This document shows, piece by piece, positions 13,147-19,058 of a stretch of DNA of 64,000 nt; position 1 is the first letter of the stretch; every line of letters starts with the position of its first letter. A program made the position numbers and the translations under genes. Below the pieces are notes generated by a model. It made no database searches, had not been told where the DNA came from, and was given only the letters and a program-made list of their open reading frames with translations. The DNA comes from Pseudodesulfovibrio nedwellii (lineage in GTDB: Bacteria; Desulfobacterota; Desulfovibrionia; Desulfovibrionales; Desulfovibrionaceae): positions 2,661,501-2,725,500 of the forward strand of contig NZ_AP026709.1 of assembly GCF_027923765.1 (NCBI RefSeq), written 5' to 3'.

Positions 13147-15654
13147 TTATTCCAATCCCATACCTGGATGATGTACTGCGTCTTCCATGGTTTCGCCGTG
13201 GCAGACGACGCAGGTTCCGTTGGCTCCAATGGCTTGAGCTTCATCCATGTATTGGAGCGGCATGACATTGTCGCGATCGGATGCCGGGTAGATGGCGTGC
13301 GGGCTGCCGTGACAGGCGCCGCAATGCATGGCATCCATCTCGTCGCGTCGAGCCGCATAGAGCGTGGCAGGGCCATCGGTCCAGGAGTTGAAAGCCGAGT
13401 CGGTTTCCGGTGGTTGGAAATCCACGTGACAGGTCAGACAATCCGGTTCGTTTAACCACGGGGTGCGTGGATTGATGGCGTCCTGATTGCCCAGAGTTTG
13501 TGGGATGATCAGACCGAGTAATCTGTCAGCGCCGGGAATGGACTGATCCTTTTCGGCCTTGAGTAAGGAGATCGCGTGATCTTCCATGGCTCCATGGCAG
13601 TCTGTGCAGACGAACCCTCCGAGATCGTGCTGTCCGCGCAGGGTGGATTCCGGGTGACATTTAAGACAGGAATCCTCGGCCTCGCGTCCGGCGAGATACA
13701 CGGCGTGAATACCGTGAATGGCGGCGGACAGATTGAGCCGTTTGTCTTTGCCGTCCGTGTCCTGCATCGGGTCGTCATGACAGGAAGCACACTCGACTAC
13801 TCCCTTGCGATTGGAGAGATCGGTGCGGTTCATGCGGTCATGCACAGCCAGAATGTTTTCGACCGTGGCGTTGGCAACACCTGAGTCTCCCTGTGCCCAT
13901 TCGCCGCCGTGACAATTGCGGCATCCCATTTGGTTGGAAGTAGGTAGTGCGACTCGGGCAGTGGCCAGAATTTCCCCGGCGTCGTTGCGTGCTTCAAGGT
14001 TGATAACAGGCAATAGATTGTATGCGCCATTGGCCTGAGACTGAATGGCGAGTTTGGTTTCGAATCGTTCGAACTCTTCGTTGAGGGCTAGTGTGCCGGA
14101 TAAGGACTTACCCTTGAAGCCGTTTTCCACCTGATAGGTAATAACGACGTCTTCAAGTACACGCTCGGGGCCGGGACCGCGCAGGACGAGTTGGGCGCGT
14201 AACGTGTTGGAAGGTGGCAGCAGGGTCCATTTGTCGCTTTGGGCATAGAAACCAGCACCGCGTGCGCACCATGCAGTCAGCACGTATTCTGAAGTATCCG
14301 AGCCAAAAGCCACAGGCTCGACCGATTTCAATTCCGGTAATTCTACCGGGTCCATAGGAGCTTTGTTGTTCAGTTCTTCGCTGATGTACCGGGCCAGAAT
14401 CATGCGTTCGTCCGGGGTTCCGGCAAAAGGCGGCATGTATTTGTTGATCTTGCCCATGCCCGTGAGGAGAGCGTCCAACCCGTTGGTGTTGAATACGGCG
14501 GTGCGTTTGCGAATATCGTTCATGGGACCGCCGATTGAATGGCAGGCGGAACATTCGAGCTGATACAGGAATGCGCCGGCTTGTTTCCAGTTGTCTTCGG
14601 TGATGCCTTTTTTGAGTTCCGGCGGTGCCCATTTGGCAGAGGCAATGGCTCCGTTCTGGTTGATGATCGGCATATGCGCCTTGACGATGGACGTTGAATA
14701 GACCGTATCCCAGATAAGATACGGCTTGCGTCCGGCTTCGCGTACGAATTCAAAGGAACCGAAAAGTCCTTGTCCGGCCAGAAGAACGACCAGTGCCAGC
14801 GGGAAACTGATGAGTCGTGGGGCTCGGATGGCGAGCAACAGTCCTCCGATAAGTGTTGCCAGACTGAACATCCAGAACCATTGCATGAATACGGCGACAC
14901 GGTGGGATTTGAATGCGACCATCTCATATTGACCGGCAGGCAGGGCGGCTATGTACCACCAGCCTGAGACGATGACGGCCAGTACACCAAGGGTCGTCCA
15001 GACTGAGCAGGAGCGCACCGCGAGCATGCGGGTGTCGTCGTCCTTGATGCGTGTAGCTGTGACGAATCCGAAAAGACCGGCACAAGCCGCACTGAAGAAA
15101 GTGCGGAAGACCAGTGAAGGCCAGAAAGTCGGGTTGAATAAACCATCCCAGAAGTCTTTGGTTTGCAACCAGTCTCCGGGCGTGAGCATGAAGCCGATGA
15201 TGCCGTTGATGAGAAACAGGGAGAACCAACCGAAGATGAAATAGAGCCAGCCCACGATGACGTGGTCGCGGCGATTCATGGTGTTCCATGTATAGTAATA
15301 GATTATGAGCGCGACAATTTCGCCGAGAAAACAAACCCACTCGGCAGCCCAGCCAAAGACGAATTGGTGGATGAGAGTGATGGTCGCCTCAGGTGCAATG
15401 AGTGCGATGGTGAACCAGATGGCCACGCCGGATACCCCGCCGAAAGCCATGGTCAGAAGTAGGAAGAAACGGGTGTGTTTTTTGGCCCATTCAAGCAGGT
15501 GCATGTTGTTGGTACGGTATGCCGCCTGTTCGGTCAGGACGAGGAACAGTCCGCCACCGACAGCGAAATGGGCTACATAAACATGGATGGTCGCGATAAA
15601 GGCGATCCAGAAGCCGCCGGCCAGAGTTGTGAGTTGCCAGATGGGGTATTCCAT
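13147..15654 (-). CDS. Cytochrome bd-superfamily (CydA-like) membrane domain fused to an eight-haem c-type cytochrome
   Basis: 835 residues. Residues 1-320 carry about eight or nine membrane helices with CydA hallmarks: an N-terminal helix with H24 and H29 (IHVYVAHF) and REAGRKPYL at 305-313, matching the GRQPW signature of bd oxidases. Then come eight CxxCH motifs: CSACH 368-372, CRNCH 578-582, CASCH 622-626, CLKCH 663-667, CTDCH 683-687, CLTCH 739-743, CGACH 778-782 and CVVCH 815-819. The first belongs to a mono-haem class I domain; the other seven form a periplasmic multihaem domain. Likely role: quinone-linked or periplasmic electron transfer; oxygen reduction is possible but unproven. 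It is translationally coupled to the partner gene 3 bp upstream. Confidence 0.9.
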   Translation of the reverse strand: MEYPIWQLTTLAGGFWIAFIATIHVYVAHFAVGGGLFLVLTEQAAYRTNNMHLLEWAKKHTRFFLLLTMAFGGVSGVAIWFTIALIAPEATITLIHQFVFGWAAEWVCFLGEIVALIIYYYTWNTMNRRDHVIVGWLYFIFGWFSLFLINGIIGFMLTPGDWLQTKDFWDGLFNPTFWPSLVFRTFFSAACAGLFGFVTATRIKDDDTRMLAVRSCSVWTTLGVLAVIVSGWWYIAALPAGQYEMVAFKSHRVAVFMQWFWMFSLATLIGGLLLAIRAPRLISFPLALVVLLAGQGLFGSFEFVREAGRKPYLIWDTVYSTSIVKAHMPIINQNGAIASAKWAPPELKKGITEDNWKQAGAFLYQLECSACHSIGGPMNDIRKRTAVFNTNGLDALLTGMGKINKYMPPFAGTPDERMILARYISEELNNKAPMDPVELPELKSVEPVAFGSDTSEYVLTAWCARGAGFYAQSDKWTLLPPSNTLRAQLVLRGPGPERVLEDVVITYQVENGFKGKSLSGTLALNEEFERFETKLAIQSQANGAYNLLPVINLEARNDAGEILATARVALPTSNQMGCRNCHGGEWAQGDSGVANATVENILAVHDRMNRTDLSNRKGVVECASCHDDPMQDTDGKDKRLNLSAAIHGIHAVYLAGREAEDSCLKCHPESTLRGQHDLGGFVCTDCHGAMEDHAISLLKAEKDQSIPGADRLLGLIIPQTLGNQDAINPRTPWLNEPDCLTCHVDFQPPETDSAFNSWTDGPATLYAARRDEMDAMHCGACHGSPHAIYPASDRDNVMPLQYMDEAQAIGANGTCVVCHGETMEDAVHHPGMGLE

Positions 15655-15657
15655 GAC

Positions 15658-16701
15658 TTAGCTCCTCCCCTGACGTGAATTGAAGTAGAGTTTGATCATG
15701 TAGGCCATGGCAGCGAGGCCTACGATCAGGAATCCGAGGAAAAGATAGAAGGAGCCGTAGCGACCAGTTACTGGTGTGGACTCGATGGAGAACCACGGCG
15801 CAATGTACAGGGTGCGCAACCAATGGCGGGTGCATACCATGAAGAAGACAGTGATGATCGCCCAGATGGTGGCTTTTTTCGGTTCTTTTTTGAAGCCTGC
15901 GATGAGCATGAATGCGGCGGCGATCAGTGAAGCGATTAACGTCCCGGTAGCCGGGATGTTCCGTCCCATGAATGCGAGAAGGATATCCTGAGGCAGTGCG
16001 GCCAGAAACCAGATGCCTACGGCCAGATTAACGAGAGTTGCACGGGTGAACCAGAGCATGCCGGTGTCGATCATATCGTCGTTGGTTCGGATCTGACCAA
16101 GCAGGGCTACGAACAGCCCGCCGATGGCGAGTGCTCCGGTCATGAAGTGCAGGAACCGGGGATAAATGACCGGATCTGACCAATTGAGAAAAGCTCCATC
16201 TGTATTGAAGTATTTCAGCCATGTTTCGGGCTGTAACATGATGGTCATGTTGTTGGAGAACATCCAGCCCACGTAGAGCAGGCCAAGAATGGACGCTGCG
16301 AAAAGTGCGGTGCGGACTGCGTTGCTCATGGATTCGTATTTGAATTTATAAATGTAGAATCCGTAGTAGGAGAACATCAAGGCCGCGATTACGGCGAGCC
16401 ACCATCCCCCCATAATAACGGAGCTGACGTAATCGAAGTGTCCGTAATTGACTTGAAGGAAGAGGAGGGGAGCCACACCCATGTTGATGGTCAGAGCAAG
16501 CAAAGGCGGTAGTTTCATACCGACTTCTTTGATTATAACTCCTTGACCTCGTAGACTTTTTGTCAATCCTATGACCGCCGAACCAAGTAGGGCGTTCATG
16601 AAAAGCAGGTGAGCCGTGAGGGTGACGATGAGCAAGATATCAAACCATGCCCAATGGATGGGTACAGGTTCGGCCAGTGGAATGAGTGATGCGGGATTCA
16701 C
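15658..16701 (-). CDS. Integral membrane partner subunit, cytochrome bd-like
   Basis: 347 residues, about eight or nine hydrophobic helices and almost no soluble domain. The sequence begins at GTG 16701 with GGAGAA ten bases upstream (alternatives are far inside the first helix). Histidines in membrane-proximal positions (H17, and H in FLHFMTGALAIGG and CTRHWLRTLY) could ligate haem b. The fold resembles the CydA-like half of its neighbour more than classic CydB. Its last codons contain the GGGGAGGAG ribosome site of the downstream octahaem gene, so the two subunits are made in a fixed order. It probably forms the heterodimeric membrane core of one complex. Confidence 0.8.
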   Translation of the reverse strand: MNPASLIPLAEPVPIHWAWFDILLIVTLTAHLLFMNALLGSAVIGLTKSLRGQGVIIKEVGMKLPPLLALTINMGVAPLLFLQVNYGHFDYVSSVIMGGWWLAVIAALMFSYYGFYIYKFKYESMSNAVRTALFAASILGLLYVGWMFSNNMTIMLQPETWLKYFNTDGAFLNWSDPVIYPRFLHFMTGALAIGGLFVALLGQIRTNDDMIDTGMLWFTRATLVNLAVGIWFLAALPQDILLAFMGRNIPATGTLIASLIAAAFMLIAGFKKEPKKATIWAIITVFFMVCTRHWLRTLYIAPWFSIESTPVTGRYGSFYLFLGFLIVGLAAMAYMIKLYFNSRQGRS

Positions 16702-16889
16702 AGGAGTTCTCCTTCATATTTATCCAGACTGTGAACCGTATTGTATATGGTAATTATTGTTAGTGCACAACATCCTTTTTCTTTGGCCTCGGTCTGACAC
16801 TAATGAAAAGTTTAATTATTATAGTGACAAAAGCTTTATATCCCGTGTAAAAGGGCTGTAAGTCTATTTTTTTGATATAGGAGGCGGTT

Positions 16890-19058
16890 ATGAAAATAGG
16901 TTTTAAGATAACTTCGCTTGGCGCTGTTCTCATAGGTCTGACTGTAACGTGTATCCTTGGTATTTTGCTTTGGCAGAGTGGCAATATGCAGGAAACGTTG
17001 ACGGAGAGTTTTGATAAGCAGGCTCGACACGAAGTGGAATTGGCCGTTGTCGATGCCGGTAACATGTTGGCGACCCAGCACGCCACTTTGGCGAAGCAAT
17101 TGGAGAATGACATGCATGTCGTTCTCGATATTGTTCAACGAAATGGGGGCTTTCACCTGTTGGATGAAACGGTTGATTGGAAGGCTGTGAACCAGATTTC
17201 GAAAAATGCATCGACTGTTTCACTCGACAAGATGGCTCTTGGAACAGAATGGCTTGGGCAAAATGCTGATCCTAATGTCTCGACCCCCATGGTGGACGAG
17301 ATTATGAAAATGACAGGAACCACCTGTACTGTTTTTCAGACCATGAATTCTCAAGGCGACCTGTTAAGGGTCGCGACTAATATCCTCAAGACAGACGGTA
17401 ATCGTGCTGTTGGGACATTTGTCCCCAGCTCAAGCATCGTAGCTCAAACGGTGAAGTCCGGGCAGACTTTTCGGGGGACGGCTTTTGTGGTCAATGCGTG
17501 GTATCTGACGCAGTACAGGCCCATCAAGAATGCGTCCGGTACGGTGATCGGTTGTCTCTATGTCGGTATCTTGCAGGAGGGTGTGCAGGAATTGCGGCAG
17601 GGCATCAAGTCCGTTGTACTTGGTGAAACCGGGTATATGGCTGTTCTGGGAGGTTCGGGCAAAGGCGAGGGCGTGGTTAAAATGCATAAGGATAAGTCGC
17701 TTGAGGGACAGAATGTGCTTCAAACGACCGATGCAGAGGGAAATACTGTTTTTAAAGAATTGATCGAAGCCGCTCAGGCGAACGACGGAAAGCCTGTAAC
17801 CAAAGCGGCCATGCTTGCCGATCGTGGGGGAGTTGAGCCTCGTGCCGTGCTTTTGAGTGCAACGTATTTCAAGCCTTGGAATTGGGTTATCGTAGGCACC
17901 GGGTATGTGGAAGAGTTCCTTGGCGGCAAGAGGGCTGCGGATGCGGCATTGGACAGTACGACGTGGTGGACCATACTGATAGGTGTGGTCATGCTTGTGA
18001 TTGGCGTGTTGGTCTTTTTCTTCTTTGCCAACAAGATGAGCCGTTCCATTGGCAAGGCTGTATCGGTTATGTCTGAGATCAGTCAGGGGAATCTGGATGT
18101 TCCCGCGCTTGATGCGGATACGAGTCGATTCAGGGACGAACTGGATGAGCTGGGTGAATCGGTTAACGCCATGGGTGAGCGGCTTCGTGACATTGTGCAT
18201 AATGTCCAATCCTCTGCGCAGAGTGTGACTCAGGGTAGCGCCGAATTGGCGAATACCTCGCAGTCGATTTCCGCAGGCGCATCCAATCAAGCTGCTTCTG
18301 TTGAAGAAGTCTCGGCTTCCATGGAAGAGATGACCTCCAATATTGAGCAGAATACAGAGAACGCTCAACAGACTGAAGGCATTGCGCGGCAGGCTGCGGG
18401 CGATGCTTCCAAGGGCGGTGAGTCGGTGAGTCGGACGGTGGATGCCATGCGTCAGATCGCCGACAAGATCGCGATTATTGAGGAAATAGCCCGTCAGACA
18501 AACCTGTTGGCATTGAACGCGGCTATCGAAGCTGCCCGCGCCGGTGAACATGGCAAGGGTTTTGCGGTTGTTGCCGCCGAAGTGCGTAAGTTGGCAGAAC
18601 GAAGCGGTGTTGCTGCCGCCGAGATCAGTGAGCTTTCGGCCAGCAGTGTCGATATAGCAGAACAGGCCGGGAAGATGTTGGGCAAGATGGTTCCAGATAT
18701 CACCCGGACTGCCGAACTTGTTTTGGAGATATCCACGGCTAGCCATGAGCAGACCACTGGTTCATCCCAAATCAAGAACGCCATTCTCGAATTGGACCGT
18801 GTGGTGCAGCAGAACTCGGCAGAGTCTGAAGAATTGGCTGCTTCGTCCGAAGAACTGGCTGGTCATGCCGCTCAGTTGCAGCAGGTTATCGGTTTCTTCC
18901 GGCTTCGTGCAGGAACGACTGCCCCGTCTGCATCGGTCAGCGTTAACCGTATCAATTCGCCCAAGCCGTTGCCTTCTGCTTCTCCCAAAACATCCCCGAC
19001 TCCGTCCGGTATGAATCTGGATATGGGGGAAGATGACTCTGGGTTCGAGCGTTTTTAG
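16890..19058 (+). CDS. Methyl-accepting chemotaxis protein with periplasmic Cache domain
   Basis: 722-residue chemoreceptor. TM1 spans about residues 9-28; the periplasmic part (about 30-350) is a Cache_3/Cache_2-type sensor ([43 protein letters not shown]); TM2 is about 357-380 ([20 protein letters not shown]); HAMP follows; the cytoplasmic hairpin tip, [20 protein letters not shown], is near 530. It lacks a C-terminal CheR-tethering pentapeptide and ends in an acidic tail. GGAGG lies seven bases before ATG 16890. It is divergent from the cytochrome operon across 188 bp. Ligand unknown; such Cache domains usually bind small carboxylates. Confidence 0.95.

Follow-up and report, generated by a model that had tools for sequence, protein, structure and literature searches.

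Which way do electrons run through a membrane protein that joins a CydA-like core to eight c haems, and what do they reduce? The question is raised by two adjacent genes of Pseudodesulfovibrio nedwellii, which lie on the minus strand of a 64,000-nt stretch of NZ_AP026709.1 (hereafter the window; coordinates are positions in it). The first gene encodes the partner subunit P0002 (347 aa; 15658..16701), a CydA-type (CydA′-like) membrane protein without CxxCH, and is followed after 3 bp by the gene of the catalytic subunit P0001 (835 aa; 13147..15654). A first-pass annotation had recognized the pair and weighed two uses for it, oxygen reduction and outward electron flow. Computed fold, residue conservation, haem motifs and partner homology suggest that the complex is probably a bd-type cytochrome c:oxygen reductase built of two CydA-type subunits, serving oxygen defence or micro-oxic respiration.

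The architecture of P0001 bears out the annotated fusion of a CydA-like core to an octahaem chain of one haem plus seven. Residues 1-323 form a membrane core of eight helices (14686..15654) with a Pfam Cyt_bd_oxida_I match at 17-229, and structure prediction and alignment with the bd superfamily, both proposed in that annotation, gave the CydA fold that places this core within the superfamily. The ninth and last CydA helix is replaced by cytochrome domains, which would therefore be periplasmic if the core has CydA topology. The core is followed by a mono-haem cytochrome c domain (residues 352-428; 14371..14601) with CSACH at 368-372 and an invariant M407, a beta-rich linker domain (residues 451-576; 13927..14304) and a heptahaem domain (residues 578-835; 13150..13923) with seven CxxCH and seven invariant candidate distal histidines. 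Residues 358-424 match a class I cytochrome below the Pfam cut-off, and multihaem matches (MtrC/MtrF-like, c7, c3) fall between 573 and 827.

For comparison we collected at least 553 confirmed relatives, the best 80 of which were used as named loci; author-chosen sets of 46 and 43 of these 80 loci entered the octahaem and partner alignments. A joint alignment held 32 canonical CydA rows (31 different), 47 octahaem rows (own included), seven mono-haem rows, 11 rows from presumed cable bacteria and two from a three-gene form. In it, Escherichia coli H19, E99, E107, E445 and R448 correspond to P0001 H24, E105, E112, E306 and R309, all of which are kept in 47/47 octahaem and 7/7 mono-haem sequences. 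The REAGRKPYL motif (residues 305-313; 14716..14742), which the annotation had read in the place of GRQPW, is indeed the counterpart of E445-GRQPW, and Glu99 and Glu445 of E. coli are described, in the portion of PMC6853902 available, as ligands at haems d and b595. The position of the b558 ligand H186, by contrast with these kept residues, is F in 44 and L in three of the 47 octahaem sequences, and that of the second b558 ligand, M393, is a gap in all 47. A profile alignment instead sets M393 on residue 266, where Met occurs in 1/47, and residues 250-273 hold no conserved Met across the 47 sequences. The structure model of P0001 has no Q loop between helices 6 and 7, because one helix spans 206-236 and the next begin at 240 (240-249) and 251 (251-275). 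Since the oxygen-site residues are kept and the b558 ligands and Q loop are gone, the oxygen half of the core has been retained and the quinol half has not, which rules out a plain CydAB identity. H29, a further histidine five positions beyond the H19 counterpart, is also kept in 47/47 octahaem and 7/7 mono-haem cores, and in 50/51 sequences of another alignment that left out L002, L003 and L032.

P0002, the second membrane subunit noted 3 bp upstream, belongs to the same superfamily as the P0001 core: their profiles align with an hhalign probability of 97.9% (E 3e-12, 295 columns), so that the partner is homologous to a CydA subunit, as in CydAA′-like pairs. Pfam gives no match for it at E ≤ 1. 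On sequence it is unlikely to be a CydB, a judgement made with no CydB profile compared and which fold alone does not decide. H31, H185, R182, R292 and R296 are invariant in 44 aligned partners, and H31 and H185 fall on the E. coli H19 and H186 positions, where they may bind a haem b. P0002 carries W100 and A107 at the places of P0001 E105 and E112, and H293 at that of E306 (E. coli E445), a position that is D in 33/44 and E in 5/44 partners. N36, at the place of P0001 H29, is kept in 44/44 partners.

All eight CxxCH of P0001, together with M407 and the seven further haem-region histidines, are invariant among the 47 aligned sequences; the mono-haem is therefore probably His/Met-ligated and the other seven bis-His. 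Chance origin of the motifs is ruled out, because shuffling the tail 2000 times produced 0.018 motifs on average and never more than one. Of the 75 genes that could be read in the 80 named loci (in L126, L128, L149, L179 and L192 the gene was not returned by the open reading frame filter), 74 have exactly eight CxxCH. Haem loading and haem type of the complex are inferred. One octahaem gene of the family around L194 (G596:C1:2935773-2938405) is split over two frames, either as a broken gene or by sequencing error.

The pair is widely distributed. Among 148 relatives at genus, family and order level, P0001 is matched in 102 and P0002 in 99. Among 395 genomes drawn evenly across the phylum, 81 match P0001; by our own count of the rows, 19 of these matches (own genome included) extend over core plus heptahaem part, 51 cover the core but not the heptahaem part and 11 cover the heptahaem part only or a short stretch. 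Relatives occur in Desulfovibrionaceae, Desulfobulbaceae, Desulfobacteraceae, Desulfuromusa and Desulfarculus, and in metagenome-assembled genomes labelled Krumholzibacteriia and CSSED10-310. The partner lies directly upstream of the octahaem gene in 71/80 loci. Three of the other nine (L125, L135, L150) start at a contig end, L171 has 1,060 bases upstream, and the remaining five are L145, L153, L158, L191 and L199; in L145, L158 and L191 (one from Desulfonema magnum, two from relatives) the partner was found elsewhere in the genome, 3/3 of those sought. Neighbour clustering, with some loci ending at contig ends, showed that, apart from the partner, no family recurs in over 14 of the 80 loci. 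In 13/80 loci, a family of membrane proteins is encoded close to the pair in the same orientation, mostly just downstream (L189, 10852-11466); its L189 member, the only one scanned, has a match to Pfam NnrU, a hint at a link with nitrogen oxides or the handling of haem.

The genome of P. nedwellii (one contig, 3.76 Mb, 99.99% complete) encodes a canonical CydAB and has no PF00115 match for a haem-copper oxidase, so that, judged by these families, the pair would be the sole oxidase linked to cytochrome c. Thirteen PF02085 stretches were identified; five lie in frames 136-148 aa long, which is the length of a single c3 protein, and donors of the proposed kind therefore seem to exist.

As an oxygen reductase, the complex would pair two different CydA-type membrane subunits as a heterodimer, with H24, E105 and E306 of P0001 holding the di-haem oxygen site and E112 on the proton path. 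Electrons would be supplied by a pool of periplasmic cytochromes of the tetrahaem c3 type, itself fed by hydrogenases or formate dehydrogenases. They would travel along the heptahaem wire, reach the His/Met mono-haem and from there the di-haem site, perhaps with a haem b at partner H31/H185 as a relay between these two. There O2 would be reduced to water with cytoplasmic protons. The wider proposal, that a two-CydA bd-type oxidase on the low-potential c3 pool is a widespread third membrane route of O2 reduction in sulfate reducers and their kin, is more tentative, and we give it somewhat less than an even chance. If true, periplasmic hydrogen or formate oxidation would be wired to O2 with the quinone pool bypassed.

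Several observations weigh against this reading. The P0002 profile does not match canonical CydA directly (probability 0.1%, E 0.49), and D or E at the E306 place in 38/44 partners leaves the haem content of the partner open, a second high-spin haem there being conceivable. In P0001, E. coli E74 is replaced by tryptophan and the two helix-3 glutamates are seven rather than eight residues apart; L186, outside the alignment, has seven CxxCH. The hosts are mostly anaerobes, and we found no activity, spectrum or phenotype of any family member. Moreover, the conserved H31/H185 of the partner could hold a quinone site.

This last point opens the best-placed rival, ahead of another small substrate and, last, of electron exit. 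A menaquinone site in the partner would deliver electrons via an H31/H185 haem b to the oxygen site or the octahaem chain, or electrons would run from c3 to menaquinone. The annotation had likewise considered a link to the quinone pool, which the CydA core does not uphold, as its H186 and M393 counterparts are missing in 47/47 sequences and its model has no quinol loop. In E. coli bd the quinol site lies in CydA itself, under the Q loop near b558, according to the available portion of PMC13189123, and a retained oxygen site would be idle if electrons moved only between quinone and c haems. We therefore regard a quinone link as unlikely. It is less probable still that the di-haem site acts, over the same electron route, on nitric oxide or peroxide instead of O2. 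Canonical bd oxidases can act in nitric oxide detoxification (PMC10839748, available in part), and the family with the NnrU-like member would fit such a role; the kept residues, however, are those of an oxygen reductase, and the remaining 67 loci, some truncated at contig ends, showed no member of that family. Electron exit to periplasmic or extracellular acceptors such as metals, with the bd core only as an anchor, would suit the MtrC/MtrF-like and c7/c3-like matches of the heptahaem domain but is highly improbable, given a strictly conserved oxygen site, no quinol site, mono-haem relatives that exist without the multihaem part, and no conserved outer-membrane partner gene near the 80 loci (representatives of neighbour families in at least 8 loci lacked CxxCH; porins were not searched as such). 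Outward flow has no support from the neighbourhood, and oxygen reduction is, we infer, the better of the two annotated options.

Among the relatives, core and partner are constant and the cytochrome part varies. One-haem forms were identified in L048 and L055-L061, and two- or three-haem forms in L049, L051 and L053. In L286 (5010-9435), a distinct gene with eight CxxCH (Pfam Cytochrome_cB) comes after a three-haem core and its partner, which looks like a swap of the octahaem part; this gene stands beside the L049 core. A three-gene form occurs in Desulfovibrionaceae (L291, 5192-8994; L292, 4370-8282) and combines a two-CxxCH cytochrome, SoxA/TsdA-like in L291, with a mono-haem CydA-type core and a CydA′-like partner that has two CxxCH. 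A tree of the core, which includes 50 octahaem rows, requires three changes of the octahaem label, a number that one gain plus two losses could explain. Support is 97/98 for the branch leading to the octahaem and derived rows and 100/100 for the mono-haem branch, in a tree where the cable and mono-haem sequences, both on long branches, may be grouped falsely.

Each of 13 presumed cable (or close) genomes (G597-G609, loci L236-L248) yielded a single CydA-type gene, a one-haem relative of the core. The cable name rests on a globin-multihaem fusion marker, with a globin (truncated haemoglobin) in 12 genomes and a globin-CxxCH fusion frame in seven of these; G606 is counted by similarity only. The gene encodes a CydA-cytochrome c fusion with RE(R/K)ARKPY and has one CxxCH in 11/13 genomes, two in L238 and none in L248, where the frame ends early, so presumed cable bacteria are ruled out as octahaem carriers. 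The partner profile matched in 0/13 of these genomes, versus 3/3 other genomes. In the 11 sequences aligned, which omit L244, almost identical to L243, and the truncated L248, H186 is kept and E107 is not. Cable bacteria are reported, in the available part of PMC10030654, to have no complete terminal oxidase and only CydA homologues, and the one-haem fusion may be that lone CydA homologue.

Upstream of the pair, a putative promoter of the two-gene unit (16742..16770, minus strand; TTGTGC, 17 bp, TATACA) was read by eye, with no statistics; its TTG and part of TAT are kept in an alignment of 21 genus members, also read by eye. An AT-rich palindrome of the type AATTATAATT lies approximately 110-123 bases before the P0002 start in part of the genus (window 16771-16889). 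Divergent from the pair is a chemotaxis receptor with a Cache_3-Cache_2 sensor (window 16890-19058). Of the 29 genus loci L003-L031 (own locus counted), 21 have the start of this receptor gene next to the pair.

The octahaem CydA gene pair seems widespread in anaerobes of the sulfate-reducing type and little described. Among the matches listed in openly licensed literature, titles and abstract beginnings held no description of a CydA-multihaem fusion, and the available parts of papers on D. alaskensis fitness and Desulfovibrionaceae electron transfer held no mention of the pair. Sulfate reducers can consume oxygen, and CydAB and a haem-copper cytochrome c oxidase are the membrane oxidases described for the model species in the accessible part of PMC4383621. 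If our reading is true, sulfate reducers have a further oxidase, one in which eight c haems connect to a bd oxygen site and which annotation can miss because the partner has no Pfam match. It would also show bd chemistry uncoupled from quinol and make the question of the donor testable.

Compared with canonical CydAB of the quinol branch (qOR), P0001 lacks the b558 ligand pair and the Q loop and has eight helices instead of nine and eight c haems, and P0002 matches the CydA-type core and is unlikely to be a CydB. The OR-C and OR-N branches of the bd superfamily, including CydAA′ and the Nitrospinota OR-N, were reportedly set out by Murali, Gennis and Hemp in 2021. As described second-hand in the portion of PMC10839748 available, these two branches stand beside the quinol branch; in OR-N, cytochrome c is the likely donor and two CydA-type proteins are hypothesized to associate. 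The pair studied here resembles OR-C/OR-N in the lack of a quinol site, a presumed cytochrome c donor and two CydA-type subunits, but differs by the octahaem fusion. The mono-haem CydA-c of other Thermodesulfobacteriota (L055-L061) is alike in core residues, place of the c haem and adjacent partner, but forms its own clade, lacks the beta and heptahaem domains and has the partner downstream (7/7), not upstream as in the octahaem pair. Alternative complex III and multihaem respiratory complexes are not known to have an oxygen site, and sequence identity in the rows for these complexes is 6-12%. The cc(o/b)o3 oxidase of Desulfovibrio vulgaris is a haem-copper enzyme with a fold other than that of the bd-type pair. 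Like the proposed enzyme, it reduces oxygen in a sulfate reducer with electrons from a cytochrome c, in this case c553, according to the accessible part of PMC4383621.
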